DNA from: Thermoanaerobaculum sp.
GTDB lineage: Bacteria; Acidobacteriota; Thermoanaerobaculia; Multivoradales; UBA5704
Assembly (NCBI GenBank): GCA_021154885.1
Contig: JAJKHS010000025.1
Coordinates: 1 to 64,000 of the forward strand
Direction: 5' to 3'
Length of the DNA: 64,000 nt
The translations under genes were made by a program, and so were the position numbers. The notes beneath the pieces are model-generated. The model searched no databases and was not told the origin of the DNA. It was given only the letters and a program-made list of their open reading frames with translations. Shown one piece after another: positions 16,030 to 35,636 of this stretch (position 1 is the stretch's first letter; each line of letters opens with the position of its first letter).

Positions 16030-19000
16030 TCAGGCCTCTCCCGGCTCGAGCTCTTCGTTGAAGTTGCTGGCGAGCGGCTGGAGCTCGGCCTGGGGCGCGA
16101 TGGCGATGGCGTGCAGCGGGAGGTCCGGATCGGCCCCCACCCGCTCGAGCAGGGCCTCGACCTGCCGCGCCATGCCGGCGATGAAATCGGCCGCGAAGAG
16201 CTCGCGGTCGTAGATCAGCGCGCCTGCGATCCCCTGGCGAGTGGCGGTGAGGCTCAGGGTGAGGTCGAAGTTAGCGCTGCGCTCCGGCAATTCGATCGGC
16301 GCCAGCTCCAGCCCGTCCAGCCGCCAGGCCGAGAGCTCGAAGGTGCGCAGCACGAGCATCACCTGGAAGAGCGGGGCGTAGCTGCCGCGGCGCTGCGGGC
16401 GCAGCGTCTCGATCAGCTTCTCGAACGGCAGGTCCTGGTGGGCGAAGGCGTCGAGCACCACCTCGCGCACCTGGCGCACCAGGGTGCGGAAGCTGGCCGT
16501 GGCCGCGACCTCGACCCGCAGCACGAGATTGTTGACGAAGAAGCCGATGAGCCCCTCCACCTCCGGCCGGTTGCGGTGGGTGACGTTGGTGCCGATCAGC
16601 AGGTCGGCCTCGCCGGTGTACTGGTGCAGCAGGGCGGCGAGGCCGGCGAGGAGGACCATGAAGAGCGTCGCCCCGGACTGGCGGCCCAGCCCGGCGAGGA
16701 GCGCCGCGGCTTCGGGGCCCAGGGCGACCGGCTGGGCGGCGCCGCGGAAGGCGGGCTGCGCGGGGCGCTGGCGCTGCCCCGGCAGGCTGAGGACCGGCAG
16801 CGGCTCCGCCAGCCGCCGGCGCCAGTAGGCGAGCTGCCCCTCCAGGCGCTCGGCGTCGAGCCGGCGCCGCTGCCAATCGGCGTAGTCGGCGTACTGCACC
16901 GGCAGCTCCGGCAGCGGCGAGGGGTGGCGGCGCACGCCGGCGCCGTAGAGAGCGGCGAGCTCGCGCATCAGGATCTCCATCGACGCGCCGTCGCCCGCCA
17001 GGTGGTGGAGCGTGAGGAGGACGGCGTGCTCGCCGGCGGCGAGGCGGACGAGCGTGGTGCGCAGCAGCTCGCCGCGGCCGAGGTCGAAGGGCCGGCCCGC
17101 CTCCTCGCCGGCCAGCCGCAGCAGCTCGCGCTGGCGGCGCTGCGGGGAGAGGGCGCCCAGGTCGACCGCCGGCAGGGGGATCGGCGATGGTGATGGCGAC
17201 GGCGATGGACCGGCGTGGACCTGGACCAGCCGCCCCGCCTCGGCGACGAAGCGGACGCAGAGGATCTCGTGCCGCCGCCGGATCTCGGCGAAGCTCGCGG
17301 CGAGCGCCGGCACGTCGAGCGGCCCGGTGAGCCGCACCGCGCCGGCGATGTTGAGGACGGCGCCGCCGCGGTCGAGCAGGTGCAGCACCCAGAGCCGCTC
17401 CTGGGCGTAGGAGAGCGGCAGGTGGGCGCCGCGCGGGACGCGGGTAAGGGGCGGCTCGGGCCGCTCCGGCTCGGGTCGCTCCGTCTCGCCCCGGCGGGCG
17501 CTCTCGACGGCGCGCGCCAGCAGCGCCACCGTGGGCTGGTCGAAGAGCTGGCGCAGGGGGAGGTCGACCCCCAGCTCCTGGCGGAGGCGCGACGCCGCCT
17601 GGATGGCGAGCAGCGAGTGGCCGCCCAAGGCGAAGAAGTCCTCGTGGATCGCCACCCGCTCGCGTCCGAGGAGCTCGGCCCAGAGGCGGCAGAGCAGCTC
17701 CTCGACGGGGTCGCGGGGCTCGCCCCCGGCGCTCTCCTCCGCCGCGCCCGGGGCGGGCGCGAGAGCCAGCGCGCGCAGCGCCCGCCGGTCCACCTTGCCG
17801 TTGGCGGTCAGGGGCAGCGCGGCGACGCGCACGAAGCTCGACGGCACCATGGGCTCGGGAAGGCGGGCGAGGAGCGCGCGCCGCAGGCCGGCGCTCTCCA
17901 GGGCCTCCGGCGGGCTGCCGGCGGCGGGCACGAGGCAGGCGACCAGGCGCTTGCCGGCCGGCCCGTCGATCGCCACCACGGCGCACCCGGCCACTTGGGG
18001 CAGCGCGCAGAGCGCCGCCTCGACCTCCCCGGGCTCGACGCGGAAGCCGCGGATCTTGACCTGCAGGTCCACCCGCCCGAGGAAATCCAGCCGGCCGTCG
18101 GCGCGCCGGCGGACGAGGTCGCCCGTGCGGTAGAGCCGGCCGCCCGGCTCGCCCGCCAGCGGGTCGGGCACGAAGCGCTCCGCCGTGAGCTCGGGGCGCC
18201 CCCAGTAGCCGCGGGCGAGGCCATCGCCGCCGACGTGGAGCTCCGCCGGCGCGCCGATCGGTGCCGGCCGGCCGCCGGCGTCGAGCGCATGGGCGCGGGT
18301 ATCGGCGATCGGCCGGCCGATGGCGACCGGCCCGCTCCCCGGCTCCGGCGCCAGCGTCTGGCAGCAGGAGAAGGTGGTCCCCTCGGTGGGGCCGTAGCCG
18401 TTGATCAGGCGCAGCGCCGGCAGGGCGGCGAGCAGCTCGCGCACGTGCCGGGGCGACAGCGTGTCGCCGCCCGCCAGCAGTTGCCGCAGCGGCGCGAGCC
18501 CCGGGAGGTTGCGCTCGATCATCTGGTGCAGCAGGCCGGCGGTCAGCCACAGGGAGGTCACGCCGTGGCGCGCCAGGGCCTCCCCCAGCTCGTCGAGCGA
18601 CGGCACCCGCGCCGCATGGAGGACGAGCCGGCCGCCGTGCAGGAGGGGGCCCCAGATCTCCAGCGTCGACGCGTCGAAGGACTGCGGTGCGAGCTGGAGG
18701 AAGGTCTCGCGCGGGCCGAGCTCGACGTAGGAGACCCCCAGGAGCAGCCGGACGATGCCGCGATGGGTGACGGCGACCCCCTTCGGCCGGCCGGTCGAGC
18801 CCGAGGTGTACATGACGTAGGCGAGGCTCGCCGGGCAGGCGCGCGGCGGCAGGCGCGCCGGGCTCTGGCGGGCGATCTCCCCCCGCTCCCCCGCCCCCAC
18901 CCGGCGCACGCCGGCCGGTAGCTGGAGGGGGAAAGGGAGCTCGCCGCGGCCGAGGTCCAGGAACAGCCCGACCCCGGAGTCGGCGCAGAGGAACGACGCC

Positions 19001-22000
19001 CTCTCCGCCGGCAGGGCAGGGTCGACCGGCACGTAGGCGCCCCCCGCCTTGAGCACCGCGAGCAGGCTCACGATACCGTCGAGCGAGCGCTCGTCGGGGA
19101 CGCCGACGCGGGTTTCCGGCGCCACTCCGAGCGTGAGCAGGAACCGGGCGAGCTGGTTGCTCCGCGCCTCCAGCTCGCGGTAGGTGAGGGCGTTGGCGCC
19201 GTCGGTCACCGCCACCGCGTCGGGAGCGCCCGCGGCCTGCGCGCTGAAGATCTCGGGCACCGTGCGCCCGGCCGCCACCTGGCAGCGGGTGTCGTTCCAC
19301 TCGTGCACCAACTGGTGGCGCTCGCCCGCGGCCAGCATCTCCAGCGCCGCGAGCGGCTTCTCGGGATGGGCGGCGAGGTCGGCCAGCAGGGTGGCGAAGT
19401 GCTCCAGGAAGCGCCGGGCGGTGGCGGCCTGGAACAGGTCGCGGCGGCAGCGCAGGGAGAGGGTCAGACGGTCTTCCTGCAACCCGGCGAACAGGCTGAG
19501 GTCGAAGTGCGACTTGTCGAGGTCCAGGTCGAGCTGGCGCACGCGCAGGGGTCCGGCGGCCGGGCGCGGGAAGCTCTGCAGGGCCAGGACCACCTCGAAC
19601 AGCGGATGGCGCCCCGGGTCGCGCACGGTCTGGAGCTCCTCCACCAGGCGCTCGAACGGCACGTCGGCGTGGGCCGCGGCGCCGAGGACGGTGGCGCGCA
19701 CCTGGGCGAGGAACGCGGCGCCGGAGAGCCCGCCGGCGGGCCGCAGGCGCAGGACCAGGGTGTTGACGAAGAACCCGATGAGGTCCTCCAGCTCCTGCCG
19801 CCCGCGGCCGGCGAAGGGTGAGCCCACCGCCAGGTCGTCCTGGCCGCCATAGCGGTGCAGCAGAGCGCCGAAGGCGGCGAGCAGGACCATGAAGACGGTC
19901 CCCCCCTGGCGGCGGGCGAGCCCGGAGACCGCCGCGCCGAGGTCCGCCGGCAGCTCGCGGTCACAGGCGATGCCGGCGTACCCCGGCCGGGCCGGGCGCT
20001 CGCGCTCGCAGTCGATGGGCAGCGTCACCGCCGCGGGGGCCGCCGCCAGTTGCTCGCGCCAGTAGGCGAGCTGCGGCTCGAGCACCGCGGGGCCCAGACA
20101 GCGGCGCTGCCACACCGCGTAGTCGGCGTACTGGACCGGCAACGGCCGCAGGGCCGCGGCCGGCCCGCCCGCGAGCTCCTGGTAGAGGGCCAGCAGGTCG
20201 CGCAGGAACACTCCCAGCGACCAGCCGTCGGCGAGGATGTGCGGGGTGTGCACCACCAGCAGGTGCTCGTCCGCCGCGAGGCGCAGCAGGGTGGCGCGCA
20301 GCAGCGGTCCGCGCTCAAGGTCGAACAGCCGGCGGGCGCCTTCATGCGCCAGCTCCGTCACGGTCTCCCACCGCACCCCGGCCGCCAACCCGTCGAGGTC
20401 GACCACGGGCAGGGGGACGGCCGGCGCCGGGGGCGCGATGCGCTGCACCGGCTCGCCGGCCTCCAGGCCGAACGTGGTGCGCAGCCCCTCGTGCCGCTCC
20501 ACCACCGCGCCCAGGCTGCGGGCCAGGGCGGCCGGCGAGAGGGGACCGCTCAGGACGAGGCCGATCTGCTCGTCGTAGAGCCGGCTCTCCGGCTCCATCT
20601 GGTGGATCATCCAGAGCCGTTGCTGGGCGAGGGAGAGGGGCAGCGGCCCCTGCCGCGGCACCGGGGCGAGCGGCGGCAGCGCGGGGCCGCTCCCCCCGCG
20701 GGCCGCGCGCTCGACCTCGCGCGCCAGGGCGGCGGGCGACGGCGCCGCGAAAAGCGCGGCGAGCGGCAGGTCGACCTGCCAGATCCCCCGCACCCGGGCG
20801 AGCAGCCGCGTCGCCAGCAGCGAGTGGCCGCCGTGGGCGAAGAAGCTCTCGCCGGGGTCGAGCGCGGGAATCCCCAGGAGCTCGGCCATCAGCGCCGCCA
20901 GCACCTCCGCCGCCGGCGAGCCCGCCGCCGATGCCGCCGTGGCCGGGTCCCCCCGGCGCGGCGCCAGGCGCGCCAGGGCGCGGCGGTCCACCTTGCCGTT
21001 GGGCGACAGCGGCAGCTCCTCCACGGCCACCAACGCCGACGGCACCATGGCCGGCGGCAGCCGGCGCTCCAGGAGCTCCCGCAGCTCCCCGTCGCCCAGC
21101 GGCGCCGCCCCGGCCGCGGCGACCAGGAAGGCGACCAGCCGGGGCTCGCCCTCCGCCCCCTCCGCGGTGAGGACGAGCGCCACGGCCTCGCGCACTCGCG
21201 GATGGGAGGCGAGCGCCGCCTCGATCTCCCCCAGCTCGATGCGCACCCCGCGCACCTTCACCTGGTGGTCGATGCGGCCGAGGTACTCGACGGCGCCGTC
21301 CGGGCGGTGGCGGGCGAGGTCGCCGGTGCGGTAGAGGCGCGCTCCCGGCTCTCCCTCTCCCTCCGCATCCGGCAGGAACTTCTCCGCCGTGAGATCGGGG
21401 CGCGCGAAATAGCCGCGGCCGACGTTCACCCCGCCGATGAAGAGCTCGCCGGGAGCGCCGATGGCGACCGGCCGCAGACGGCGGTCGAGCAGCCGGATCT
21501 GCGTGTTGGCGATCGGCCGGCCGATGGCGACGACCTCCGGGACGCCCGGGGCGACTGTGACGGAGGGGCCGCAGCTCCAGGACGTCACGTCGACCGCCGC
21601 CTCGGTCGGCCCGTAGAGGTTCTCCAGCGCGGCGGGCAGGCGCTCGCGGCAGAGCCGGGCGAGGCGCTCCGGCAGCGCCTCGCCGCTCGCCACGATCAGG
21701 CGCAGCGCGCCGCCGAGCCGCTCCACCCCGGGCTCCTCCAGGAACGCCTGCAGCATGGCGGGCACGAAGTGGGCGACGCTCACCCGCTCGCGGGCCAGCA
21801 GCTCCAGGAGATAGCGGCTGTCGCGGTGCCCGCCGGGCCGGGCGAGGACGAGCCGGGCGCCCGTCAGCAGCGGCCAGAAGAATTCCCAGACCGAGACGTC
21901 GAAGCTGAAGGGGGTCTTCTGCACCACCGTGTCCGCCGACGTGAGGCGGTAGGCCGCCTGCATCCAGAGCAGCCGGTTGCGGATGGCCCGGTGGTGCACC

Positions 22001-25000
22001 ATCGCCCCCTTGGGCCGGCCCGTGGAGCCCGAGGTGTAGATCATGTAGGCGAGCTGGGAGTCGTCAAAGACCTCCGCCTCCCCGGCCCCGCCCTCCCCGC
22101 CTTCCTCTTTGCAGCCGGGCTCGAGGTCGAGGCAGAGCACCCGCGGCAGGGCCGCGGGACAACGGGCGAGCAGGCGCGACTCCGAGAGCACCAGCGCCGG
22201 GCGGGAGTCCTCCAGCATGAAGGCCAGGCGCTCCAGCGGGTACTCGAGGTCGAGCGGCACGTAGGCCGCGCCGGCTTTCAGCGTGGCGAGCAGGGCCACC
22301 ACCAGCTCCACCGAGCGTTCGAGGGCGACGCCCACCAGGGTGTCCGGGCCGCAGCCGAGGGCCCGCAGCCGGGCGGCCAGGCCGTCGGTCCAGCGGTCGA
22401 GCCCGGCGTAGGTCAGAGTCCGCGCGCCGTCCGCCACCGCCACCGCGTGCGGCGAGCGCCGCGCCTGGCGGCGGAACAGGTGATGGAGGCCCGCGCCCGG
22501 CGCCGTATCGGCCACCGCCGTGTCGTTCCACTCGCCGCCGGCCTGCGCCGTCTCGGCCGCGGAGAGCAGGGGGAGGTCCGACAGCCGCCGCCCCGGCCCG
22601 GCGGCGGCCGCCGCGAGCAGGCGCTCCAGATGGCCGGCCAGCCGCGCCGCCGTCGCCGGGTCGAAGAGGTCGCTCGCGACCTGGAGCGCGCCGGCCAGGC
22701 GTCCCCCCACCTCGGCCAGGGTGAGCGCGAGGTCGAAGGCCGCGCTGCGCTCGGGGATGGCGACGGGCTCCAGGCACAGCCCGCCGAGGTCGAGCGGCGG
22801 TCCGGCCTGCCTGAGGGCGAAAGCCGCCACCGCCTCCTCCTCAGGGGAACGGGCGCGGTGCAGGGCGAACAGCACTTGGGCGAGGGGGAGCCGGCCGGGC
22901 TCGCGCTCGACCCGCAGCCGCTCGGCGAGCAGGAGGAAGGGGAAGCCGAGGTGGGCGAAGGCGCCGAGCGCCGTCCCCCGCACCCGGCCGACCAGCTCCG
23001 CGAAGGCGGGATCGCCCCCCAGGCCGGTGCGGAAGGGCACCGGATTGGCGAAGTAGCCGATCACCTGCAAGAGGTCGGGATCGCTCCTGCCCGCCTCGGC
23101 CGAGGCGACGAGCAGGTCCTCCTGCCCGCTGTAGCGGTGGAGCAGGGCCTGGAATGCCGCGAGCAGGACCATGAAGAGGGTCGCGCCCTGCTCCCGTGCC
23201 AGGCGCCGCAGCCCTTCCGCGGTCGCGGCGTCCAGGGCCAGGGGGGCGGCCGTGCCGCGGAAGCTCTGCACCCGCGGGCGGGGACGGTCGAGGGGAAGCT
23301 CGATTGTCCCGGACATCTCTGGAACGCCGGCCAGCCGCTCTCGCCAGTAGCGCTCCAGCCGCTCCCCTTCGGGGCCCTCCAGCCGCCTCCGCTCCCACGC
23401 CACGTAGTCGCCGTAGCGCAGGGCCAGGGGCGCCAGGGCCGCCGGCGGTCCCTCCGACTCCGCCCGGTAGAGGGCCGCGAGCTCCCGCGCCAGGACGCCC
23501 AGCGACGCGAAGTCGGCCACCAGATGGTGCACCACCACCACGAGCCAGGCGCCCGCCTCCTCCGTCCGCCGCAGGAGCGTGACCCGCCAGAGGGGCTCCG
23601 CCACGATGTCGAAGGGGCGGCAGGCCTCCCGTTCGAGGGCCGCGGCGACCTCCGCCGCGCTCCACCCCGAGGCGTCGACCACCGCGGGACGCGGCGCCCT
23701 GGCCTCGCCCTCCACCCGCTGGAACGGCTCGTCCGCTCCCTCGTGGCCCTCATGGAACGTCGTCGACAGGGCGGGGTGGCGGGCGGCGAGAGCGCGACAG
23801 GTGCGCTCCAGGGCCGCGGCGTCCAGCCCCGCTGCGACGCGGGCCGCCGCCACCAGGTGATACGCCGCGCTCGCGGGAGCCAGTTGGTGGAGGAACCAGA
23901 GGGCGCGTTGCCCGTGGGAGAGGGGGAATTCGGCCTGCGCCGCGGCAACGGGCCGCGGCCTGTCCGCCGCCGCTGCACTCCCGTTCTGGAGCTGATCCAG
24001 GACCTCGCCGGCGAGGGCCTCGAAGCTGGGCCGCTCCAGGATGCGGGCCAGCGACACCTCCACCCCGAGCGTCCGCTCCAGGCGCTGCGCGAGCTCGGCC
24101 GCGGCCAGCGAATCGAGGTCCGCGAGCCCGGCGCTCTCGGCGCGCACCACCGCCGCCGCCTGGTCGCGCAGGAAGGCGGCGAGCTGCGTCAGCGCTTCAT
24201 CTGAGGCCAGCGGAGCCAGCCGGGCCAGGGACTCCGGCCCCGCAGGCGCTTCTTCTTCCCGGGCTCCCCGGGCGAGGACCGGCAGCTCGTCCCGGAGGTA
24301 GAGCTCGCGACAGAGCTGGCGCTGCACCTTGCCGCTGGAGGTCTTGGGCAGCCCCCCGGGGCGGAGCAGGAGCAGAGCGTGGAGGGCGACCTCGTGCTCC
24401 GCCGCCAGAGCCCGGCGGACCTGGCGGGCGATCTCCTCGACCTGCTCGCCGGCGGGGTCCGCCGCGATCGCCAGGGCCGAGCGGCGGTCGACCTCCTGCG
24501 CCAGCACCAGGCGCTCCTCGTCCGCCACCTCGACCGAGAACGCCGCGCCGCCGTCCGGCACCAGGGCCGGGTGGGCCGCCTGCGCCGTCGCCTCCAGGTC
24601 CTGGGGGTAGCAGTTGCGGCCCCGCAGGATGATCAGCTCCTTGCGCCGCCCGGTCACGAAGAGGACGCCGCCCTGCAGGAATCCGAGGTCCCCCGTGCGC
24701 AGGAACGGGCCGGCCCCCGGTTCGTCCGCCAGGCGGGCGGCGAAGGTCCGCGCCGACTCCTCGGGCTGGTGCCAGTAACCCTGCGCCACGCTCGGACCCG
24801 CCACCCAGACCTCCCCCACGCGGCCGGGCGGCAGTCGCCGGCGCTCCTCGGGCTCGGCGATCACCACCTCGAGGTCCATGCCCGCCGCGCCGCAGCCGGC
24901 GAGCGCCAGCCGCGCGCCCGCGGCCCGCGGCTCCTCCGCCCAACCCCGGCCCAGGGCCGCCGCGTCGACCGTGGCGACCACGGGCTCGTCCTCGACGCGG

Positions 25001-26187
25001 GCGCCGGCCACGAACAGGGTGGACTCCGCCAGGCCGTAGCAGGGGAGGAACGACCGGCGCTCGAAGCCGCAGCCGGCGAACGCCGCGGCGAACCGCGCCA
25101 GGGTCGTCGGCCGCACCGTTTCCGAGCCGGTGAAGGCCACCCGCCAGCTCGACAGGTCCAGCCCGGAGCGCTCCGCCTCCCCCACCCGGCGCGCGCACAG
25201 CTCATACGCGAAGTTCGGCCCGCCGCTGGTCGTCGCCCGGTAGCGGCTGATCGCCTCCAGCCAGCGGCGCGGCCGCTGGAGGAAGCTCAAGGGGGAGAGG
25301 AGGACGCAGACCGCGCCGGTGTAGAGCGGCTGGAGGACGCCGCCGATCAGCCCCATGTCGTGGTAGAGAGGGAGCCAACTGACGATGACCGAGCTCTCGC
25401 TCTGGGCGAAGGCCCGGCGGATGACCTCCTCGTTGTGCAGCAGGTTGCCGTGGGTCACCACCACCCCCTTGGGCAGGGAGGTCGAGCCGGAGGTGTACTG
25501 GAGGAAGGCAGGGGTCTGCGCACCGGCGCCGGGGTCCCGCCAGTCGCCTTCGCCGGACTCCGCCGCATCCGTGGCGAGGACCGGCACCCCGGCGAGGCAG
25601 GGGACCGCCGCCGCCCAGGCCCGCACCTGGCCGGCGAGCGCCGCGCTGGTGAGGACGACCTCGGGCCGCGCGTCCGCGGCGATGGCCAGTAGCCGCGGCG
25701 AGCTCCGTCCCCGCGCCGGCGGGAACGCCGGCACCGCGATCCAGCCGCCGTAAAGGCAGCCGAAAAAGGCGGCGATGAATTCGACGCCCGCCGGGTAGAG
25801 CAGCAGGGCCCGCCCCCCTGGCCCGCCGCGGGCCTGGAGCCTCGCGCCCAGCCGGCGCGCACCTTCGTCCAGCTCTCCCGCCGTCAGGCTCTCCGCTTCC
25901 TCGCCCGTCGCGGCCAGGAAGCGATAGACCTTCCAGTCCGGGTTCTGCGTACCGTGCGAACGGAGCAACTCGACAAGAGTAGAGAACTGCCGTGGCAGTT
26001 GCAGACGAAAGCGGTCCAAAGTCAATCCAGTTTCAGAGCTTCCAACCAATGTGTTGGATTCAAATTCTAGCAGGGCCTGGTGGAAAGAACAATCCTCAGC
26101 AGGAGCTCTCAAGCCGGCGCCAGAAAGTCTGCAATTAAAGATTTTCAAATTCGTACCGCGCACGCTGACGCTGCTGATTCTCCGCAT
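16030..26187 (-). CDS. Lipopeptide starter NRPS: FAAL-ACP-C-A(Ser)-T-C-A(Val)-T-C
   Basis: A 3385-residue megasynthase. A fatty acyl-AMP ligase (residues about 70-640; YTSGSTSLPKGV, WLPLYHDMGLIGG, KTSSGKVQR) loads an ACP (LADLDSLAAAEL, about 692). A starter C domain has HHLVADFASL (about 886). Module 1 A has pocket D-V-W-H-V-S-L-V-D-K, matching the Ser code; its T domain is at about 1786. Next is a C domain with TPHILADGWSL, where the first His is Pro but the catalytic second His is kept. Module 2 A has pocket D-A-L-W-L-G-G-T-F-K, matching Val; its T domain is at about 2858. A final C domain (HHLAGDGAS, about 3060) ends the protein and must act on an A-T partner supplied in trans. ATG 26187 follows TGAGG by 7-8 bases, but the first 50 codons are AT-rich and unlike FAALs; TTG 26025 or 26019 could be the true start. 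Confidence 0.95.
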   Translation of the reverse strand: MRRISSVSVRGTNLKIFNCRLSGAGLRAPAEDCSFHQALLEFESNTLVGSSETGLTLDRFRLQLPRQFSTLVELLRSHGTQNPDWKVYRFLAATGEEAESLTAGELDEGARRLGARLQARGGPGGRALLLYPAGVEFIAAFFGCLYGGWIAVPAFPPARGRSSPRLLAIAADARPEVVLTSAALAGQVRAWAAAVPCLAGVPVLATDAAESGEGDWRDPGAGAQTPAFLQYTSGSTSLPKGVVVTHGNLLHNEEVIRRAFAQSESSVIVSWLPLYHDMGLIGGVLQPLYTGAVCVLLSPLSFLQRPRRWLEAISRYRATTSGGPNFAYELCARRVGEAERSGLDLSSWRVAFTGSETVRPTTLARFAAAFAGCGFERRSFLPCYGLAESTLFVAGARVEDEPVVATVDAAALGRGWAEEPRAAGARLALAGCGAAGMDLEVVIAEPEERRRLPPGRVGEVWVAGPSVAQGYWHQPEESARTFAARLADEPGAGPFLRTGDLGFLQGGVLFVTGRRKELIILRGRNCYPQDLEATAQAAHPALVPDGGAAFSVEVADEERLVLAQEVDRRSALAIAADPAGEQVEEIARQVRRALAAEHEVALHALLLLRPGGLPKTSSGKVQRQLCRELYLRDELPVLARGAREEEAPAGPESLARLAPLASDEALTQLAAFLRDQAAAVVRAESAGLADLDSLAAAELAQRLERTLGVEVSLARILERPSFEALAGEVLDQLQNGSAAAADRPRPVAAAQAEFPLSHGQRALWFLHQLAPASAAYHLVAAARVAAGLDAAALERTCRALAARHPALSTTFHEGHEGADEPFQRVEGEARAPRPAVVDASGWSAAEVAAALEREACRPFDIVAEPLWRVTLLRRTEEAGAWLVVVVHHLVADFASLGVLARELAALYRAESEGPPAALAPLALRYGDYVAWERRRLEGPEGERLERYWRERLAGVPEMSGTIELPLDRPRPRVQSFRGTAAPLALDAATAEGLRRLAREQGATLFMVLLAAFQALLHRYSGQEDLLVASAEAGRSDPDLLQVIGYFANPVPFRTGLGGDPAFAELVGRVRGTALGAFAHLGFPFLLLAERLRVEREPGRLPLAQVLFALHRARSPEEEAVAAFALRQAGPPLDLGGLCLEPVAIPERSAAFDLALTLAEVGGRLAGALQVASDLFDPATAARLAGHLERLLAAAAAGPGRRLSDLPLLSAAETAQAGGEWNDTAVADTAPGAGLHHLFRRQARRSPHAVAVADGARTLTYAGLDRWTDGLAARLRALGCGPDTLVGVALERSVELVVALLATLKAGAAYVPLDLEYPLERLAFMLEDSRPALVLSESRLLARCPAALPRVLCLDLEPGCKEEGGEGGAGEAEVFDDSQLAYMIYTSGSTGRPKGAMVHHRAIRNRLLWMQAAYRLTSADTVVQKTPFSFDVSVWEFFWPLLTGARLVLARPGGHRDSRYLLELLARERVSVAHFVPAMLQAFLEEPGVERLGGALRLIVASGEALPERLARLCRERLPAALENLYGPTEAAVDVTSWSCGPSVTVAPGVPEVVAIGRPIANTQIRLLDRRLRPVAIGAPGELFIGGVNVGRGYFARPDLTAEKFLPDAEGEGEPGARLYRTGDLARHRPDGAVEYLGRIDHQVKVRGVRIELGEIEAALASHPRVREAVALVLTAEGAEGEPRLVAFLVAAAGAAPLGDGELRELLERRLPPAMVPSALVAVEELPLSPNGKVDRRALARLAPRRGDPATAASAAGSPAAEVLAALMAELLGIPALDPGESFFAHGGHSLLATRLLARVRGIWQVDLPLAALFAAPSPAALAREVERAARGGSGPALPPLAPVPRQGPLPLSLAQQRLWMIHQMEPESRLYDEQIGLVLSGPLSPAALARSLGAVVERHEGLRTTFGLEAGEPVQRIAPPAPAVPLPVVDLDGLAAGVRWETVTELAHEGARRLFDLERGPLLRATLLRLAADEHLLVVHTPHILADGWSLGVFLRDLLALYQELAGGPAAALRPLPVQYADYAVWQRRCLGPAVLEPQLAYWREQLAAAPAAVTLPIDCERERPARPGYAGIACDRELPADLGAAVSGLARRQGGTVFMVLLAAFGALLHRYGGQDDLAVGSPFAGRGRQELEDLIGFFVNTLVLRLRPAGGLSGAAFLAQVRATVLGAAAHADVPFERLVEELQTVRDPGRHPLFEVVLALQSFPRPAAGPLRVRQLDLDLDKSHFDLSLFAGLQEDRLTLSLRCRRDLFQAATARRFLEHFATLLADLAAHPEKPLAALEMLAAGERHQLVHEWNDTRCQVAAGRTVPEIFSAQAAGAPDAVAVTDGANALTYRELEARSNQLARFLLTLGVAPETRVGVPDERSLDGIVSLLAVLKAGGAYVPVDPALPAERASFLCADSGVGLFLDLGRGELPFPLQLPAGVRRVGAGERGEIARQSPARLPPRACPASLAYVMYTSGSTGRPKGVAVTHRGIVRLLLGVSYVELGPRETFLQLAPQSFDASTLEIWGPLLHGGRLVLHAARVPSLDELGEALARHGVTSLWLTAGLLHQMIERNLPGLAPLRQLLAGGDTLSPRHVRELLAALPALRLINGYGPTEGTTFSCCQTLAPEPGSGPVAIGRPIADTRAHALDAGGRPAPIGAPAELHVGGDGLARGYWGRPELTAERFVPDPLAGEPGGRLYRTGDLVRRRADGRLDFLGRVDLQVKIRGFRVEPGEVEAALCALPQVAGCAVVAIDGPAGKRLVACLVPAAGSPPEALESAGLRRALLARLPEPMVPSSFVRVAALPLTANGKVDRRALRALALAPAPGAAEESAGGEPRDPVEELLCRLWAELLGRERVAIHEDFFALGGHSLLAIQAASRLRQELGVDLPLRQLFDQPTVALLARAVESARRGETERPEPERPEPPLTRVPRGAHLPLSYAQERLWVLHLLDRGGAVLNIAGAVRLTGPLDVPALAASFAEIRRRHEILCVRFVAEAGRLVQVHAGPSPSPSPSPIPLPAVDLGALSPQRRQRELLRLAGEEAGRPFDLGRGELLRTTLVRLAAGEHAVLLTLHHLAGDGASMEILMRELAALYGAGVRRHPSPLPELPVQYADYADWQRRRLDAERLEGQLAYWRRRLAEPLPVLSLPGQRQRPAQPAFRGAAQPVALGPEAAALLAGLGRQSGATLFMVLLAGLAALLHQYTGEADLLIGTNVTHRNRPEVEGLIGFFVNNLVLRVEVAATASFRTLVRQVREVVLDAFAHQDLPFEKLIETLRPQRRGSYAPLFQVMLVLRTFELSAWRLDGLELAPIELPERSANFDLTLSLTATRQGIAGALIYDRELFAADFIAGMARQVEALLERVGADPDLPLHAIAIAPQAELQPLASNFNEELEPGEA
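26064..26092 (-). promoter_or_regulatory. Possible sigma70-type promoter for the NRPS operon
   Basis: On the minus strand TTGTTC (26092-26087) is separated by 17 bases from TAGAAT (26069-26064), in a locally AT-rich patch. If used, transcription would begin near 26057 and translation would have to begin at a downstream TTG (26025 or 26019) rather than at ATG 26187. No experimental support. Confidence 0.3.
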
Positions 26188-28125: not shown

Positions 28126-29343
28126 TCAGGTGCGCGTTTCGTTCTGAGACGGCTCGAGCTCGAAGGACGTCCAGAGCAGCCATACGGATTGGCTCCAGAG
28201 ACTCGTCGCGATGAGGGCGGCGAGCGAGCCCGGCGGAATCCTGACCCGTTCGCGCATCCAGGGGTCTTCGAGCAAACGCCAACTGGCGGCGAGCATGGGC
28301 GGATAGATCAGATCGATGGCGGGGTGAGGATCGTTTTTCTTTTGCAGTTTGTCGGACCACAGGCTGAGGATTCGCACGTCGAGATGGCCGGGAGCGAGTC
28401 TCTGGAGGTTCGCCGTCACAATGGAGAAGAGATTCACGTCCACGGGATTTTCGAGCAGAAGAAGATGGGCGCCAAGAACGCCCTGCATGGGATCTTCCCA
28501 CTTGGCCATCAGCAGGCGTTCGGTCTGGTCATGCGGGAGAGCGGCCCGGCCTACACTCAAGTTGGCGCGCGCCTGTTCGGTGATGCGCGCGACTTTCCAA
28601 TCGGGCTTGTCAGCGCCGAGCCTGCACATGGTAACGCCGGCGTTGGCGAGATCAGGACGGACTTTGCGGGTGTGGACGCCGAATTCGCGGAGCGGGAGGA
28701 AGACGCAGGTCTCAAATCCCTTCTCGGTCCAGATGGGCATTTCGATGGCGCCGAGGTCGGCGAGTTGGACCCGCAGTCGATAAAAGCCGGGCGCGCAGGT
28801 AATGATGGCGGTGAGCGACTGGAGGTTGACGTCGGCGAAGCCTTTGATGTCCTCTCCAGCTTCGTTGATCAAGCTCATGGCGTCGACGAGATCCGCGGGA
28901 ACCTCGCTTCCCTGGATGCCGACGTAGAAAAACAGCTCGCTGCCGGTGCCGCTCCATTTTCTCTTGCGCGGCGTGGGACCGCGGCTCGCGCTCGCCTCAG
29001 GTGCCTTCTCTGCGGCGCCGCGCGTAATTCGGCGGCCCCTGCCGGTGGGGGTGCGAGCGGGCGTTGGGGATGGCGCGAGATCCTCGGGCGGCAGCGGCGA
29101 GGCGAGCTCGATCGGCGGACCCTCCACTTTGACGAGCTCCTGATTGAATACCTTGGACATCTCGACGACGTTGTTGCCAGCCTTGAACTTCAACTTGTAC
29201 AGGCCCGGCTCCAGGTCATCGGCGACCAGACCGCCGACCCCTTTCGCGACGCGGTTGTAGCCGCCATCAATGAGGAAGACTTCGTCGAAGGGGCTCGCGG
29301 CCTTCACTTCCAGACGTACCTTGCCGTCGAACAACTTAAACAT
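28126..29343 (-). CDS. Unknown protein, third gene of the caspase operon
   Basis: A 405-residue protein of no family I can name. An N-terminal beta-rich segment (residues 1-65, FDGKVRLEVK...GLYKLKFKAGNN) is followed by a Pro/Arg/Ala-rich linker (about 80-125). A second beta-rich domain (SELFFYVGIQGSEVPADLVDAM..., with CAPGFYRLRVQL) comes next, then a helical C-terminal domain carrying DPMQGVLGAHLLLL. No signal peptide or membrane helix is evident. ATG 29343 overlaps the last 8 bases of the caspase-like gene, so the two are probably translationally coupled. It may be a substrate, scaffold or effector of the protease; that is inference. Confidence 0.8.
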   Translation of the reverse strand: MFKLFDGKVRLEVKAASPFDEVFLIDGGYNRVAKGVGGLVADDLEPGLYKLKFKAGNNVVEMSKVFNQELVKVEGPPIELASPLPPEDLAPSPTPARTPTGRGRRITRGAAEKAPEASASRGPTPRKRKWSGTGSELFFYVGIQGSEVPADLVDAMSLINEAGEDIKGFADVNLQSLTAIITCAPGFYRLRVQLADLGAIEMPIWTEKGFETCVFLPLREFGVHTRKVRPDLANAGVTMCRLGADKPDWKVARITEQARANLSVGRAALPHDQTERLLMAKWEDPMQGVLGAHLLLLENPVDVNLFSIVTANLQRLAPGHLDVRILSLWSDKLQKKNDPHPAIDLIYPPMLAASWRLLEDPWMRERVRIPPGSLAALIATSLWSQSVWLLWTSFELEPSQNETRT

Positions 29344-30364
29344 GGAGGTCCACCGCCTCTCCAAAAGCATCGAACTCGCTGGCGGATTGGCCGTCTGGAT
29401 TCATCAGGGCATAGTGACCCATGGGGAGCTCCAGCCGCCACGGGTTGGCACCGCCGGTGTTGGGTCTGAGCAGGTTCGGACTGCCGCCGAATATGCTGTA
29501 GCCGTTGCTGGCGGCCGCCGCAGGGGCTTGAAACTGCACGGTCACCGCGGTCAACTTCGTGGCGAGCCCTTCCGCCATGGCGAACTCATCTTTGGGAAGG
29601 AATTGCGGCTCGTCGAAGCCGGCGCCGATGGCATCGAGCTTCGGCTTGACGCGCTGGGTGAAGTAGTTGAGGACGTAGCGCGTGACGTCCGCCGTGTTCA
29701 GCCTGCCATCTGCGGTCACGGCGCCGCCGTCAAGGGCGCCCATCAGCGCCTGGGTGAAGTAGCCATGGACATCGCCGTTGGCCGCTTCGGCCTCGCGCGC
29801 CTTCTTTGCCCAGCGGGTGGCAAGACCGTAGAAACGCTTCACCTGGCCGCCGCGCACGTTGTGAACGGATTGCCAGGGCGCCTGACCCAGGGGGGCCCGG
29901 GGCATGTCGTCGCGGCAGCAATCCATGAAGAGCACGATCTCGTCGAAGTAGGCGGCGGCGGCAAACCAGTCAGCGTACTCGACAGCGTTGAGGTGGTGGC
30001 CGGTGGTGCCGAGGAGGAGGTCGGCGTTTGAGGCCAGCAGCGCGGAGGTGTTGAGATCCGGGCCGAAGCCGTGGCCGGCGAAGAAAAGGTAAAGGCGTTT
30101 GCCAATCCGGCTTTTCGAGCGGCCGATTCTGAGCAGGCGCTCGAAGGCGCGGTTGATGACCATGATGTCGGGTTGAGAATCGATGCTCTCGGCAGTGCCG
30201 GTAAATTGGGAGCCGAGAATGAGCGACGCGTTTTTGTCGGGGTTGACCAACTTGTTGGAGACGAGCCACTCATGGAACCAGGTGGCGTCGTTCTCCGGGC
30301 CCCGAAGGCTGGAGATTCCCGGATAGTTGTTGATACCGGCCGTAATGGCGTAGTTTTCGTCCAT
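29336..30364 (-). CDS. Caspase-like cysteine protease (peptidase C14 fold)
   Basis: A 342-residue protein. The catalytic dyad of the caspase/metacaspase clan is visible: His in LYLFFAGHGFG (about residue 98) and Cys in VLFMDCCRDD (about 148). The N-terminal strand (NYAITAGINNYPGISSLRGPENDA) is typical of bacterial caspase domains. After the catalytic domain (to about 260) comes a beta-type tail containing NPWRLELPMGHYALMNPDG, perhaps a regulatory or pseudo-substrate domain. The ATG is 2 bp after the hydrolase stop, and the gene overlaps the next one by 8 bp. The operon context resembles conflict or immune modules with caspase effectors, but no canonical sensor is present. Confidence 0.9.
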   Translation of the reverse strand: MDENYAITAGINNYPGISSLRGPENDATWFHEWLVSNKLVNPDKNASLILGSQFTGTAESIDSQPDIMVINRAFERLLRIGRSKSRIGKRLYLFFAGHGFGPDLNTSALLASNADLLLGTTGHHLNAVEYADWFAAAAYFDEIVLFMDCCRDDMPRAPLGQAPWQSVHNVRGGQVKRFYGLATRWAKKAREAEAANGDVHGYFTQALMGALDGGAVTADGRLNTADVTRYVLNYFTQRVKPKLDAIGAGFDEPQFLPKDEFAMAEGLATKLTAVTVQFQAPAAAASNGYSIFGGSPNLLRPNTGGANPWRLELPMGHYALMNPDGQSASEFDAFGEAVDLHV

Positions 30365-30366
30365 GC

Positions 30367-31863
30367 TCACGACCACCCGTTCTTGAGGAGAAAGCGGATG
30401 CTGTCGATGGTGGCGCGCTTGGCGGGATCTTCGGTGTCGTCGAAACCACCGTGGGAGTCGGCGTTGGTTTCGCTTCCCGGGGCGCCGGTGTTGAGCGAGA
30501 ACACCATCTGTTTGGGGCCGCTCAGGAAGCCGCGCACGTCGGGGATGCCGGTCTGCGGGTTCTGGTAGGCCGGCGCGTCGGAGATGAAATAGCGTTCCAT
30601 GCCGAGGAGTGGCTTGTCCGCTTCGTCCTCCAGAACACCGGAGATGAAGTAGAGCAGCGAGTGCGGATAGAGAATCGGAATCAGGCGGTCCTTCTTTTCC
30701 AACTCGTCGAACATCGTGAACATGCGGATGTTGCGGATGTGGCTGGCGTTGTGGCGAACCGTGTCGGCGAAGAATTCGATCCGGCAGGCGGGGGCCATCA
30801 GCACGATGTCGAACTGGTAGTTTTTCGACAGGAAGCGATCGGCGTTGCGCAGCAGGTTGCAGACATACTCCGCGCCGGCGCTGTGCCCGATCAGGGTGAT
30901 GCGCGTCTTGTTGTCGGGGTCGACGCGCTGGATCTCTTCGAGAAACGCCGAGCCGCCGCAGAGCATGGTGTTATCTCCGAAGGCGTCGGCGGTGTCCTGC
31001 TTCATCAGACCCCAGATTTCGCGGCCCACGGCGCTGACGTAGAACTCGCGGAAGATTTCTTCGACGACCGTGGCGTGGAAGCCGTGATCGCGCTTGCGGG
31101 CGAATCGCGCGACGACTTTCGCGACGACGACGATGGCGCCCTTGATGAGCCGCGTACTGCCGAAGATGCCGCGCGTTCCCTCGGTGCCGGCCATCTTTTC
31201 GCGGCGGATGTCGGCGAGGACTTCGGGCGCCATCAGGGTGTGGCGCGAGCCGGCGACTTCGGCGCCGCGCGAGCGGGCCAACTGGTCCGCCGGTTCGACG
31301 CTGTTGGAGATCAATTGCACTTCGCCCATGAAGACCGGGTCGCCTTCCAGCAGGTCGCGCAACTGCTGCGCTTCAAGCTCGGTGAGGTCGGAAGTGGCGG
31401 CGCGGCGGTCTTCGGTCATTTCTTCCCAGTGCGCCTCGCCGGCCTTCATCTTTGCCGTTTCCTGTTCGACATGCGTGTCGTCGACCGGCGTTACCATCAC
31501 ACCGCGTTCGCCCACGGCCTGGAGTACTTTTCCACCGGCAAACTGCAGCGCGAGCAGCAGCAGTCTTTCGAAGAACTGCTCATTGGCAACCTCGGCAACG
31601 TTGTTGCGGATGGATTCGAGCAGACCGGACTCCCAGACGAAGAACACCGGATAGGCGACGTTGGTCTGGTGGTATTCGGGCAGCAGGCGTTCGGCCATGG
31701 CCATGGCCGAACTTTCAGAAACCAGGCCGCCGTGGAAGTGGACAGCCAGGTTTTTGGTGCCCTCCTGAACGAAGCTGTCGAAGAGTTGCCGAAGATCCGA
31801 CCGCGAGGTGGAGTCGAACCGGCCACTGCGCAAATTGACGAAATTCGCTGGCATGATTCCCAT
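30367..31863 (-). CDS. Alpha/beta-hydrolase protein, first gene of the caspase operon
   Basis: A 498-residue protein. The oxyanion-type motif NLAVHFHGGLVSES (about 38-51) and the nucleophile elbow LIGHSAGAEYV (Ser about 326) mark an alpha/beta hydrolase of esterase/lipase type. In between lies an insertion of about 250 residues with charged and hydrophobic parts (GAIVVVAKVVARFARKRDHG). There is no signal peptide, so it is probably cytosolic. AGGGG lies 8 bases ahead of ATG 31863. Two bases separate its stop from the caspase ATG. The three genes are AT-richer than the surrounding genes, which fits horizontal acquisition. Confidence 0.85.
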   Translation of the reverse strand: MGIMPANFVNLRSGRFDSTSRSDLRQLFDSFVQEGTKNLAVHFHGGLVSESSAMAMAERLLPEYHQTNVAYPVFFVWESGLLESIRNNVAEVANEQFFERLLLLALQFAGGKVLQAVGERGVMVTPVDDTHVEQETAKMKAGEAHWEEMTEDRRAATSDLTELEAQQLRDLLEGDPVFMGEVQLISNSVEPADQLARSRGAEVAGSRHTLMAPEVLADIRREKMAGTEGTRGIFGSTRLIKGAIVVVAKVVARFARKRDHGFHATVVEEIFREFYVSAVGREIWGLMKQDTADAFGDNTMLCGGSAFLEEIQRVDPDNKTRITLIGHSAGAEYVCNLLRNADRFLSKNYQFDIVLMAPACRIEFFADTVRHNASHIRNIRMFTMFDELEKKDRLIPILYPHSLLYFISGVLEDEADKPLLGMERYFISDAPAYQNPQTGIPDVRGFLSGPKQMVFSLNTGAPGSETNADSHGGFDDTEDPAKRATIDSIRFLLKNGWS

Positions 31864-33307: not shown

Positions 33308-34195
33308 CTACTCGATCGCCTGGAAGAACCCCTCCGCCGTGAACACCCGGAACCATTCATGCAGCGCGGTGGCGAGGGCATCGTCGTCCAGGTCGCTGAC
33401 GGCGGCCGCGGCGGCGAGGGCCTCGGCCACGGTGGCGCCGGACTGGAGGGCGGCGAGGAGGGCGTGCTGGGGGAACGACAACGAGTAGCGGCGGACGACG
33501 AACTCGCGGCGGGTGATGGCCGTGTACTCGGGAGCGGGATCCGGAATGGGGATCTCCTCTCCCTCTTCCACCTGGCGCACCGCCGTGAAGTAGGCGTTCA
33601 CGGGATAGCGGGAGACCACCAGTCGCAGGCAGGGCACGGGCACCAGCCGGGCGCCGGCGAAGCGCTCGGCGGGGAAAGCCTGGAGAGCCTCGGGAGTCAG
33701 GAGGGTCTGGCCCTCGGTCCCCGGGCCGTCGAAGACCTTGGCGAGGGTCCACTCCAGGGAGGCAAGGTCGATGAGGAAGTCCGGCCAGCCCACCTCGCCC
33801 GGCGGCGGTCCGCCGTCCTCGGGGCCCGGCCGGGTCTCCTCCAGGAAGCGGGGGAAATTCTCCCCCAGCCGGTCCAGGGTGTAGCTGCGCGAGGGGTAGC
33901 GCTGCAGGTACTCGAAGGCGAAGCCGCTGAAGACCTCCTCGCCCACGGCCCCCTTCAGCACCGGGAAGCACTCGCCCACGCACTCCAGCAGACGGGCGTA
34001 GTAGGCGTTGGCGTAGATGCCGATGCGCTCGGCCGCCGTGAGGTTGCGGGAGCGCCGGACCACGGCCTCCAGGTCGCCACGGGTCAGCCGGATGAGCGCC
34101 TGCGCCGCCTCGGACTCCACGCCCCCCTCGACCCCCCCGGGGTGGGTGACCACGGCCTGGAACCATTGCTGCACCACGGCGAGCGACCGGCTCAC
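33308..34195 (-). CDS. DUF2063 protein, BufC-like partner of the DUF692 enzyme
   Basis: 295 residues. The N-terminal DUF2063 region ([13 protein letters not shown]...[33 protein letters not shown]) is the hallmark of BufC/HvfC-type proteins that accompany DUF692 enzymes and help present the precursor peptide. The rest is the usual beta-rich partner domain. The GTG start at 34195 overlaps the TGA of the DUF692 gene (GTGA), so stoichiometric coupling is likely. Confidence 0.87.
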
Positions 34196-35142
34196 TCGAC
34201 CTCCGGCTGGATGTGGTGCAGGGGATGGGGCACGCTCGCTCCACTCGCTCCAATCATTCCGGCCAGGATCAACTCGGGCTCGGGCTCCTCGGCGGCCGGC
34301 GGCGCCTTCGGCAGGTGCTCGCCCATGAACTGCCTGGCCTTGAGCACCTCCTCGTGGACCACGGGGAAGGGCGGGATGTTGGCATCCCACTCCAGGAGGG
34401 TCGATACGCCTCCGGTCAGCTCGTGGGCCGTGCGGTAGAGCTCCCAGACGGGATCGATCACGTGGTTGTCATGCGTGTCGATCAGGTGGGTGGTGTAGTT
34501 GCTGTGCCCCGCGAGGTGGAACTGGACGATGCGCTCGTGAGGGAGAGAGCGGATGAAGCGGTCGGGGTCCATGTCGTGGTTGAAGCTCGACACGTAGACG
34601 TTGTTGACGTCGAGCAGCAGGCCGCAGTCGGCCTCCTCGGCCATGCGGGTGACGAATTCCCACTCGTCCAGGGTCGAGTCCTGGAAGGTCACGTAGGAGC
34701 TGGGGTTCTCCAGCACGAACGGCCGCTCGAGGAAGTCCTGCAGCGTGCGGACGCGCTCCACCACGTGGCGGAGGGTCTGCTCGGTGAAGGGCACGGGGAG
34801 CAGATCGTGGGTGTTGCGGCCGAGGACGCCCGTCCAGCAGATGTGGTCGGAGATCCACTGGGCCTTGATCTCTTTCGCCAGCCGCTTGAGCTTGCCCAGG
34901 TACTCGAAGTCGAGGGGATCGGTCGAGCCGATGGAGAGCGACACCCCGTGCATGACGACGGGATAGCGCTCGGCGATCTGCTGCAGGACGTAGCGCGGCC
35001 GGCCCTGCGAGTCGATGTAGTTCTCGCTGATGATCTCGAACCAGTCCACCGCCGGCTGGTGCTTGAGGATGTGGTCGAAGTGGACGGACCGCAGGCCCAC
35101 TCCGAGGCCGAGGTTGTCGTGTCCGAGGCGGGGGGGTTTCAT
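34192..35142 (-). CDS. DUF692 multinuclear iron oxidase (BufB/MbnB-like)
   Basis: 316 residues from ATG 35142 (AAGGAG upstream). A TIM-barrel DUF692 protein with the conserved metal ligands in [53 protein letters not shown] and LLEWDANIP. Members use a mixed-valent iron centre to oxidise Cys residues in a precursor peptide, giving oxazolone/thioamide in methanobactin and thiooxazole in bufferins. Here it follows a Cys-rich exported peptide gene by 68 bp and precedes a DUF2063 gene, the standard precursor-enzyme-partner order. Confidence 0.93.
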
Positions 35143-35210
35143 ACGGCTCCTTCCTGGCAGAAGGGAGAACGGCGGCCCGGGCTGCATTGTTCCGGGGCCG
35201 CCTCAGCGCG

Positions 35211-35636
35211 TTACGAAGCGCTGCACGAAGCGGGGGCGGGGCCGAACTTCTTGCCGGCCTTCTTCATCGACGCCTCGTAGCTCGCCCGGGCCTTCTTCCA
35301 GCCGTCGCCCTTGATCGGCACCGCGCAGCTCCCCTTGCCCTTGCAGGAGTTGTCGCCGGTGCCGCCCTGGCCCTTGCAGTCGTTGGTGCCGGCGCAGCTA
35401 TGGGCCGCGGCGGTGGCGCACGAGCCCTGGCCCGCGCAGTCGTTCTTGCCGCCGGCGCCCTCGCCCTTGCAGGCATTGAGGCCGCAGCAGGCGTGAGCGT
35501 CCTTGGCCGCCTCCTTCTTCTCGTCCGCCGAAAGCAGGCGTCCGCCCAGCACCGAGCCGGCGACCACACCGCCGAAGGCGGCCAGGGCCAACTTGCCGAA
35601 ATCTCTCCGGCTGACGTCTTCGTCCAACTTCTTCAT
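35211..35636 (-). CDS. Tat-exported Cys-rich precursor peptide, bufferin-like
   Basis: 141 residues. The N-terminus has a twin-arginine signal (SRRDFGKLALAAFGGVVAGSVLGG). The mature part carries ten Cys in repeating Gly/Lys-rich patterns (CCGLNACKGEG, NDCAGQGSCA, NDCKGQGGTGDNSCKGKGSCA). A Lys-rich tail ends in CSAS. AGGAGA lies upstream of the ATG. Its position as first gene before the DUF692 and DUF2063 genes identifies it as the probable modified substrate. By analogy the product should bind or buffer copper or another thiophilic metal in the periplasm; the metal is inferred. Confidence 0.88.
   Translation of the reverse strand: MKKLDEDVSRRDFGKLALAAFGGVVAGSVLGGRLLSADEKKEAAKDAHACCGLNACKGEGAGGKNDCAGQGSCATAAAHSCAGTNDCKGQGGTGDNSCKGKGSCAVPIKGDGWKKARASYEASMKKAGKKFGPAPASCSAS

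Follow-up and report, generated by a model that had tools for sequence, protein, structure and literature searches.

A conserved hydrolase-caspase cassette with an Ig-domain partner in Thermoanaerobaculum sp. and other bacteria: a candidate caspase-gated conflict module

Background

The locus described here raises the question whether three closely packed genes of a Thermoanaerobaculum sp. form a conserved system, and in which way the caspase-fold protease encoded by the second of them might act on the products of the others. The genes lie within 64,000 nucleotides of contig JAJKHS010000025.1 (assembly GCA_021154885.1, positions 1 to 64,000), a stretch that we call the window. An earlier, sequence-only reading of this DNA had proposed that an alpha/beta hydrolase, a caspase and a protein of unknown family together make up a conflict system. 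Our data reveal that the trio is a genuine conserved cassette. We estimate at roughly 55% the probability that it is a caspase-gated suicide module in which, judging from sequence conservation and by analogy with known systems, the caspase would open a dormant lipase or esterase by two cuts. Literature was consulted as titles, abstract openings and text passages, and all statements on published systems refer to these parts of the sources, in which the trio is not described.

Organisation and conservation of the cassette

30367..31863, minus strand: gene 1, alpha/beta hydrolase of 498 amino acids, predicted gated lipase/esterase effector
29336..30364, minus strand: gene 2, caspase-fold protease of 342 amino acids from its ATG, with a C-terminal TTR/Ig-like domain
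28126..29343, minus strand: gene 3, third protein of 405 amino acids from the ATG common to relatives, predicted caspase-binding regulator or scaffold

The block occupies 28126-31863 of the minus strand, with the spacing that the sequence-only reading had given: the hydrolase and caspase genes meet at TGA-GC-ATG, a 2-bp gap, and the caspase and third genes overlap by 8 bp at ATGTTTAA. The starts of the latter two genes, ATG at 30364 and ATG at 29343, are those used by their relatives.

The hydrolase alignment, used to scan named bacterial and archaeal genomes, yielded 50 loci. Profile searches of their open reading frames (ORFs) placed all three genes at 39 of them, so that the proposed composition withstood the check for co-occurrence; the order is hydrolase-caspase-third at 38 loci and caspase-third-hydrolase at one (L031). 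Among the 11 incomplete loci, L010, L025, L033 and L051 touch a contig end or look broken, whereas in L037, L040, L045, L046, L048, L049 and L050 neither a caspase nor a third gene could be recognised within the fetched stretch. The 39 complete loci are not independent events, because the 50 were picked by hydrolase patterns, 11 of them come from Streptomyces or Kitasatospora, and the hydrolase DNA of L031 and L051 is identical. Going by record titles, the trio occurs in about ten phyla: Chloroflexi, Proteobacteria, Desulfuromonadales, Acidobacteria (Holophagae), Verrucomicrobia, Actinobacteria, Deinococcota (Calidithermus), Bacteroidetes, Planctomycetes and Myxococcales.

No fourth conserved gene emerged from an all-against-all comparison of the neighbours at the 50 loci, in which no family present at four or more loci is widespread outside Streptomyces. 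Besides the trio, two neighbour families reach three or four non-Streptomyces loci, and a further one, which overlies the trio on the opposite strand, reaches two. The Anaerolineae trio (L003, 7135-17474) is flanked on both sides by NACHT-FGE-sulfatase proteins, a context of the conflict type.

Candidate cleavage sites in the hydrolase insertion

31030..31605, minus strand: hydrolase insertion, about residues 87-278, entirely helical in the model (DSSP)
31501..31506, minus strand: site A, the bond Arg120-Gly121, where the caspase is predicted to cut; it lies in a loop between two insertion helices
31168..31173, minus strand: site B, the bond Arg231-Gly232, where the caspase is predicted to cut; its loop is modelled with reduced confidence
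31264..31269, minus strand: Arg199-Gly200, weaker third candidate, in the only stretch with a predicted local distance difference test score (pLDDT) below 50 (residues 196-203)

The large insertion that had been noticed in the hydrolase contains the positions on which our interpretation turns. They were examined in an alignment of 176 hydrolases (120 listed proteins, 50 genome loci and 6 plasmid loci, which are overlapping sets), from which 45 trio hydrolases (39 plus 6) were compared with 7 that have no neighbouring caspase; L105, a near copy of L101, and the cut or broken L010, L025, L033 and L051 were left out. Position 120 is Arg or Lys in 44 of the 45 trio hydrolases (L026 is gapped), in 1 of the 7 caspase-less ones and in 164/173 overall, and the residue that follows is Gly, Ala or Ser in 41/45 versus 0/7. 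At position 231 all 45 trio hydrolases have a basic residue followed by Gly, Ala or Ser, a full pair found in 2/7 caspase-less proteins; three of these seven retain the basic residue, which is present in 170/174 hydrolases overall. Both positions are basic in 44/45 hydrolases beside a caspase, in none of the seven without one and in 161/176 overall. When representatives below 50% identity are counted, Arg or Lys occupies both sites in 25/25 cases, compared with 0/6 caspase-less clusters (Fisher 1.4e-6, kinship ignored).

Control columns, defined by a residue class conserved in at least 44/45 trio hydrolases, place this pattern in perspective. Among 62 such columns, 43 are kept in all seven caspase-less hydrolases, 8 in six, 8 in five and 1 in four, which means that 59/62 are kept in at least five; only 231 (three) and 120 (one) are kept in three or fewer. 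No equally conserved column is lost as often as these two where the caspase is missing. Cuts at both positions would free about 111 residues. The site B loop is modelled with a pLDDT of 73-74.

The bond Arg199-Gly200 had been considered as the second cleavage site and was demoted, Arg120-Gly121 being far better conserved alongside the caspase. Position 199 is basic in 150/166 hydrolases overall, in 31/45 of the trio set and in 4/7 of the caspase-less set, and therefore does not track the caspase.

The caspase and its Ig-domain partner

30071..30073, minus strand: catalytic His98 of the caspase, 172/172 relatives with a letter at this position
29915..29917, minus strand: catalytic Cys150 of the caspase, 173/173
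29339..29581, minus strand: beta-sandwich at the C-terminus of the caspase (residues 262-342), with a relationship to the N-terminal domain of the third protein
29089..29343, minus strand: TTR/CnaB/Ig-like domain 1 of the third protein, residues 1-85 (hhalign and model)
28978..29082, minus strand: Pro-rich linker within the third protein (residues 88-122), modelled with low confidence; its richness in Pro is not shared by relatives
28678..28962, minus strand: second TTR/Ig-like domain of the third protein, spanning residues 128-222, seen in the model and aligned with domain 1 at an hhalign probability of 95.4
28150..28599, minus strand: helical domain at the C-terminus of the third protein (approximately residues 249-398), from the model

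The His/Cys dyad of the caspase is intact, as had been read from the sequence, and Asp148 (173/173) and Asp26 (171/171) are likewise invariant. The caspase profile matches metacaspases and MALT1 (best 1.4e-5), proteases that cut after the basic residues Arg and Lys (PMC4357240). From this family precedent and from aligned acidic residues we infer that the caspase of the trio has a basic P1 specificity.

Its tail aligns with the N-terminal domain of the third protein at an hhalign probability of 96.9, compared with 0.2 for the caspase core as a control, so that one Ig/TTR-like domain is present in three copies, one as the caspase tail and two in the third protein. The third protein has no match in Pfam; a direct search with it returned only 5 relatives, and profile searches of the loci gave more. 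The window copy lacks a longer C-terminal part found in most aligned relatives, and the VIA rows for this protein cover mostly residues 5-81, its helical part being barely tested. In the genome G090, which reappears below, a second and very distant pair of a caspase-like and a third-like protein was observed (L077, 1189-3248; 30 and 22 bits).

An exchangeable first gene

The hydrolase is the usual but not the only partner of the caspase and the third protein. In G297 a phospholipase-C-type phosphoesterase (PF04185, 5e-81) with an astacin domain ends 4 bp before the caspase and fills the slot of the hydrolase; the suggestion of the sequence-only reading that a lipase-like effector stands beside the caspase is plausible. 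An astacin/matrixin metallopeptidase precedes the caspase in Sinorhizobium terangae (L096) and Cupriavidus campinensis (L095), where the caspase and the third protein form a single polypeptide, and Mesorhizobium huakuii (L097) has a subtilase in the first position. In S. mexicanum (L098) only a short unknown ORF lies before the caspase, and a gene for Endonuclease_NS and trypsin follows the third gene. Domains are also attached to the C-terminus of the third protein, among them trypsin with PLD (L099), trypsin with Endonuclease_NS (L100), astacin (L080) and pYEATS (L101, L102 and L103 by Pfam, L105 by the product name in the record).

The plasmid loci, 11 in number, comprise 10 records with caspase matches and L105, one of 14 with hydrolase matches. 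Caspase and third gene occur in all 11, the caspase of L102 being split over two ORFs, and the first gene of the 10 caspase-matched records is the hydrolase in six, a metallopeptidase in two, a subtilase in one and not recognised in one. Effectors are thus shuffled on a constant caspase-third core.

Two further fusions were observed. The third protein of Bradyrhizobium cytisi (L016, 5309-8815) is joined to a GroEL-type chaperonin (Cpn60, 1e-77), and a Hymenobacter protein of 1468 amino acids (L042, 12607-17013) combines the third protein with Amidase_2, with papain and with another member of the hydrolase family.

Proposed mechanism and alternative explanations

Domain sharing and the caspase-third fusions lead us to propose that the third protein and the caspase would form a complex through their Ig-like domains, in which the third protein probably restrains or recruits the caspase, until some trigger, presumably of the infection type, frees it. 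The conservation of both sites leads us to propose that the freed caspase would cut the hydrolase insertion after Arg120 and Arg231. The opened lipase or esterase would then damage the lipids of its own cell and cause cell death, an outcome suggested by the phospholipase swap and by family precedent. Cleavage, lipid substrate, cell death and an infection-type trigger are all predicted steps.

Somewhat short of even odds stands a broader proposal, in which the trio would be one form of a widespread immune platform built from modules. Its constant part would be a protease core made up of the MALT1-like caspase and the Ig-domain protein, and this core would unlock whichever dormant enzyme occupies the exchangeable slot, mostly the two-cut pro-lipase, also a phospholipase C, metalloprotease, subtilase or nuclease. 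Such a platform would be the bacterial counterpart of lytic death executed by caspases, acting via lipid hydrolysis and not via gasdermin pores.

Several observations weigh against a caspase-gated suicide module. The seven caspase-less hydrolases are a small and divergent set with poorly aligned loops, in which absence of the caspase refers to the neighbourhood only, and basic residues at columns 253, 272 and 288 are kept in all seven, so that basic conservation alone means little; positions 120 and 231 could be conserved for folding or substrate binding instead. The loop of site A is confidently modelled (block pLDDT 90-93) and not disordered. The caspase-third pair occurs without a recognisable first gene in G090 and G239, which means that the hydrolase is not essential everywhere, and the pYEATS and GroEL fusions are not obvious toxins. 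A search of phage records with the hydrolase returned zero matches. Nor does the window copy stand in a recognised defence neighbourhood: PADLOC recognised no defence genes among 10 ORFs near the trio, some of which may not be genes, its matches being confined to an ABC-type ATPase and read as cross-hits.

The caspase-third pair may instead be a general proteolytic switch, releasing or activating any enzyme that is encoded along with it, with the hydrolase as one client among several, in which case it could serve stress signalling or development, and lipid damage or death would not be required. The varied first genes, the varied C-terminal domains including GroEL and pYEATS, and two loci without a recognisable first gene agree with such a switch. 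Most of the attached enzymes observed are nevertheless hydrolytic, a feature shared with conflict systems; they comprise lipase-like enzymes, phospholipase C, PLD, nuclease and peptidases. We regard this explanation as unlikely. Alternatively, the caspase might cut the Pro-rich linker of the third protein, which would then be effector or inhibitor, as the sequence-only reading had supposed. In the window this linker is modelled with low confidence and is rich in Arg and Pro, yet the linker of relatives is a different one, conserved in part and with an S-AP..T motif, and it is the hydrolase insertion that contains the basic sites tracking the caspase; this version is very improbable to us. An offensive role, as a locus for predation or of the polymorphic-toxin type that exports its enzymes to rivals, also has a slim chance. 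Three annotated rhizobial plasmid copies lie near insertion sequence (IS) elements, one S. meliloti copy lies near lysozyme and DUF2235 genes, and amidase and papain fusions exist, all of which would suit such a role. Against it, the caspase and the third protein are the constant parts and not delivered domains, and, apart from conjugation typing, the annotations of the plasmid stretches revealed no gene dedicated to export, though no search was aimed at one.

The trio may alternatively have branched off from the VMAP ternary conflict systems (Kaur et al. 2020), in which a caspase is always accompanied by an alpha/beta-hydrolase gene (PMC7159879). This pairing is the likeness, whereas the trio differs by the lack of an adjoining VMAP protein and by a standalone caspase with an Ig/TTR-like tail. 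Linkage to VMAP was rejected, because VMAP-C scores above the cut-off in only 3/28 genomes (27 locus genomes and that of the window) and never beside the trio, MoxR and vWA being outside this search. The single VMAP-C protein of the window's genome is on contig C126 (G000:C126:71387-72052) and the trio on C25, and in the two Streptomyces with VMAP-C the match coordinates fall outside the fetched trio stretches. As the third protein moreover has no Pfam match, descent from these systems appears improbable.

Comparison with described systems

The closest parallel to a caspase-gated suicide module is Canu (CanABC), a caspase-nuclease antiphage system (Tuck et al. 2025), in which CanA, a MALT1-like caspase with an Ig-like fold, in complex with CanB activates the nuclease CanC and protects E. 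coli from T4; CanC is predicted to be blocked by two insertions, in which conserved residues are needed as predicted proteolysis sites (PMC12799240). The trio shares with Canu the number of genes, a MALT1-like caspase with a C-terminal Ig-like fold, a second protein that would complex with the caspase, and an effector whose insertions carry conserved predicted proteolysis sites. The Ig-like domain of the caspase is apparent from the relation of its tail to the TTR/Ig-like domain of the third protein and from the match to the MALT1 profile. The third protein is likened to CanB only by position and by its fusion to the caspase. The effectors differ, being an alpha/beta hydrolase in the trio and an MBL-type nuclease in Canu, and so do the sites, which are pairs of a basic and a small residue in the trio, whereas the Canu paper names conserved Gly. 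A Pfam scan of the window neighbours and of 15 neighbours of other loci gave no match to the MBL family. Having no nuclease effector, the trio is not Canu; we predict, by analogy, that it works like Canu without being a member.

Other systems share single elements. In the NucA-trypsin systems (System 3) the pair of trypsin and Endonuclease_NS is the core (PMC7159879), whereas in the rhizobial cassettes it is an attached module, either fused to the C-terminus of the third protein (L100) or encoded by the next gene (L098). The caspase core is distantly related (1.5e-8) to that of the two-gene EACC1-caspase system, in which EACC1 is a transmembrane gene 5' of the caspase (PMC7159879; NCBIfam NF047832); membership was rejected, since the match reaches 34.4 bits against a curated cut-off of 140 and in the trio the hydrolase takes the 5' position. 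A resemblance to bacterial gasdermin and CARD-NLR systems, for which phospholipases are named as alternative effectors to gasdermin (PMC13236601), lies in the protease-linked cell lysis that we predict for the trio; the trio differs in having neither an NLR/ATPase nor a gasdermin.

The claim of the sequence-only reading that no such system had been described accordingly holds for the trio itself, with the restriction that caspase and alpha/beta-hydrolase neighbours were noted for VMAP systems (PMC7159879) and that Canu follows the same logic with a nuclease (PMC12799240). The trio would thus be a further caspase-gated conflict operon with a lipase-like hydrolase as its usual effector. If so, caspase-gated killing in bacteria would employ not only nucleases and gasdermins but also lipases and, through the exchange of modules, a range of further enzymes, in a cassette that as such is not covered by the Pfam, NCBIfam and PADLOC models searched. 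The prediction is sharp, naming one protease and, as its targets in the hydrolase, two conserved Arg-Gly bonds, and the trio would offer a second lineage of Ig-domain caspases, comparable to Canu and human MALT1, for studying how Ig domains control caspases.

Hydrolase family and catalytic residues

30880..30882, minus strand: Ser328, predicted nucleophile (GHSAG), 176/176 relatives
30706..30708, minus strand: Asp386, candidate triad acid by a putative assignment, 172/176
30451..30453, minus strand: His471, candidate catalytic His, 175/176

The nucleophile elbow G-x-S-x-G and a candidate for the catalytic His of alpha/beta hydrolases are both present in the window protein, and His327 is kept in all 176 aligned hydrolases. 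Foldseek gave no match at E < 0.38, and the fold assignment therefore rests on the VIA re-alignment. Searches of the trio proteins against Pfam, NCBIfam and PADLOC returned little beyond weak caspase and hydrolase matches, single-sequence PDB searches nothing useful, and profile searches with the hydrolase and the third protein weak matches only.

The insertion is absent from distant hydrolase relatives in genomes related to that of the window. Distant hydrolases elsewhere are fused to caspase and amidase, or to papain. In genomes of the window's order, the insertion-less relatives (L053-L059) sit inside large proteins; of two scanned by Pfam, one contains a caspase and an amidase and the other a papain-type peptidase, and the others look similar by eye.

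Distribution and genomic context

In 396 genomes of the window's phylum, the profile of the third protein matches 9 at E 0.001, and five of these, including the window's, match strongly (> 270 bits). The caspase is adjacent in 5/5 and the hydrolase in 2/5; G454 corresponds to locus L009, and G090, G239 and G297 are new loci. In the phylum of Thiocystis 2/299 genomes match strongly, namely the seed and G587, whose locus is L008; the figures are 1/251 for the phylum of the Anaerolineae locus and 1/235 for that of the Myxococcales locus (the seed in both). With weak matches included the counts rise to 3, 5 and 5 genomes, so that Pseudomonadota, Chloroflexi and Myxococcota yielded no new strong locus. 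The hydrolase profile finds a match in 8 of 98 relatives of the window's genome, which is itself counted among them, and in 7 of the 8 the match is to distant insertion-less proteins only. The same-genus genome G002 shares the upstream amidohydrolase at 96% identity (residues 64-462) and continues with different ORFs. This patchy occurrence, including the lack of the trio after the amidohydrolase of G002, suggests that the cassette was probably gained laterally.

The guanine plus cytosine content of the trio is 62-63%, compared with 70% for the window, 76% for the adjacent nonribosomal peptide synthetase (NRPS) gene, 68% for the upstream amidohydrolase and 64% for the downstream cysteine-synthase-like gene, in agreement with the earlier remark that the block is AT-richer than its neighbours. 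The NRPS-like ORF (16030-26187, 3385 amino acids), which adjoins the trio, was judged by its sequence without a domain scan, and a tRNA-Ala called antisense within it (16737-16825) is probably false. At 33308-35636 an MbnB/TglH/ChrH-type enzyme (PF05114), a DUF2063 protein and a small Cys-rich precursor-like ORF (35211-35636) look like a peptide-modification cluster for ribosomally synthesized and post-translationally modified peptides (RiPP), which we take to be of the bufferin kind.

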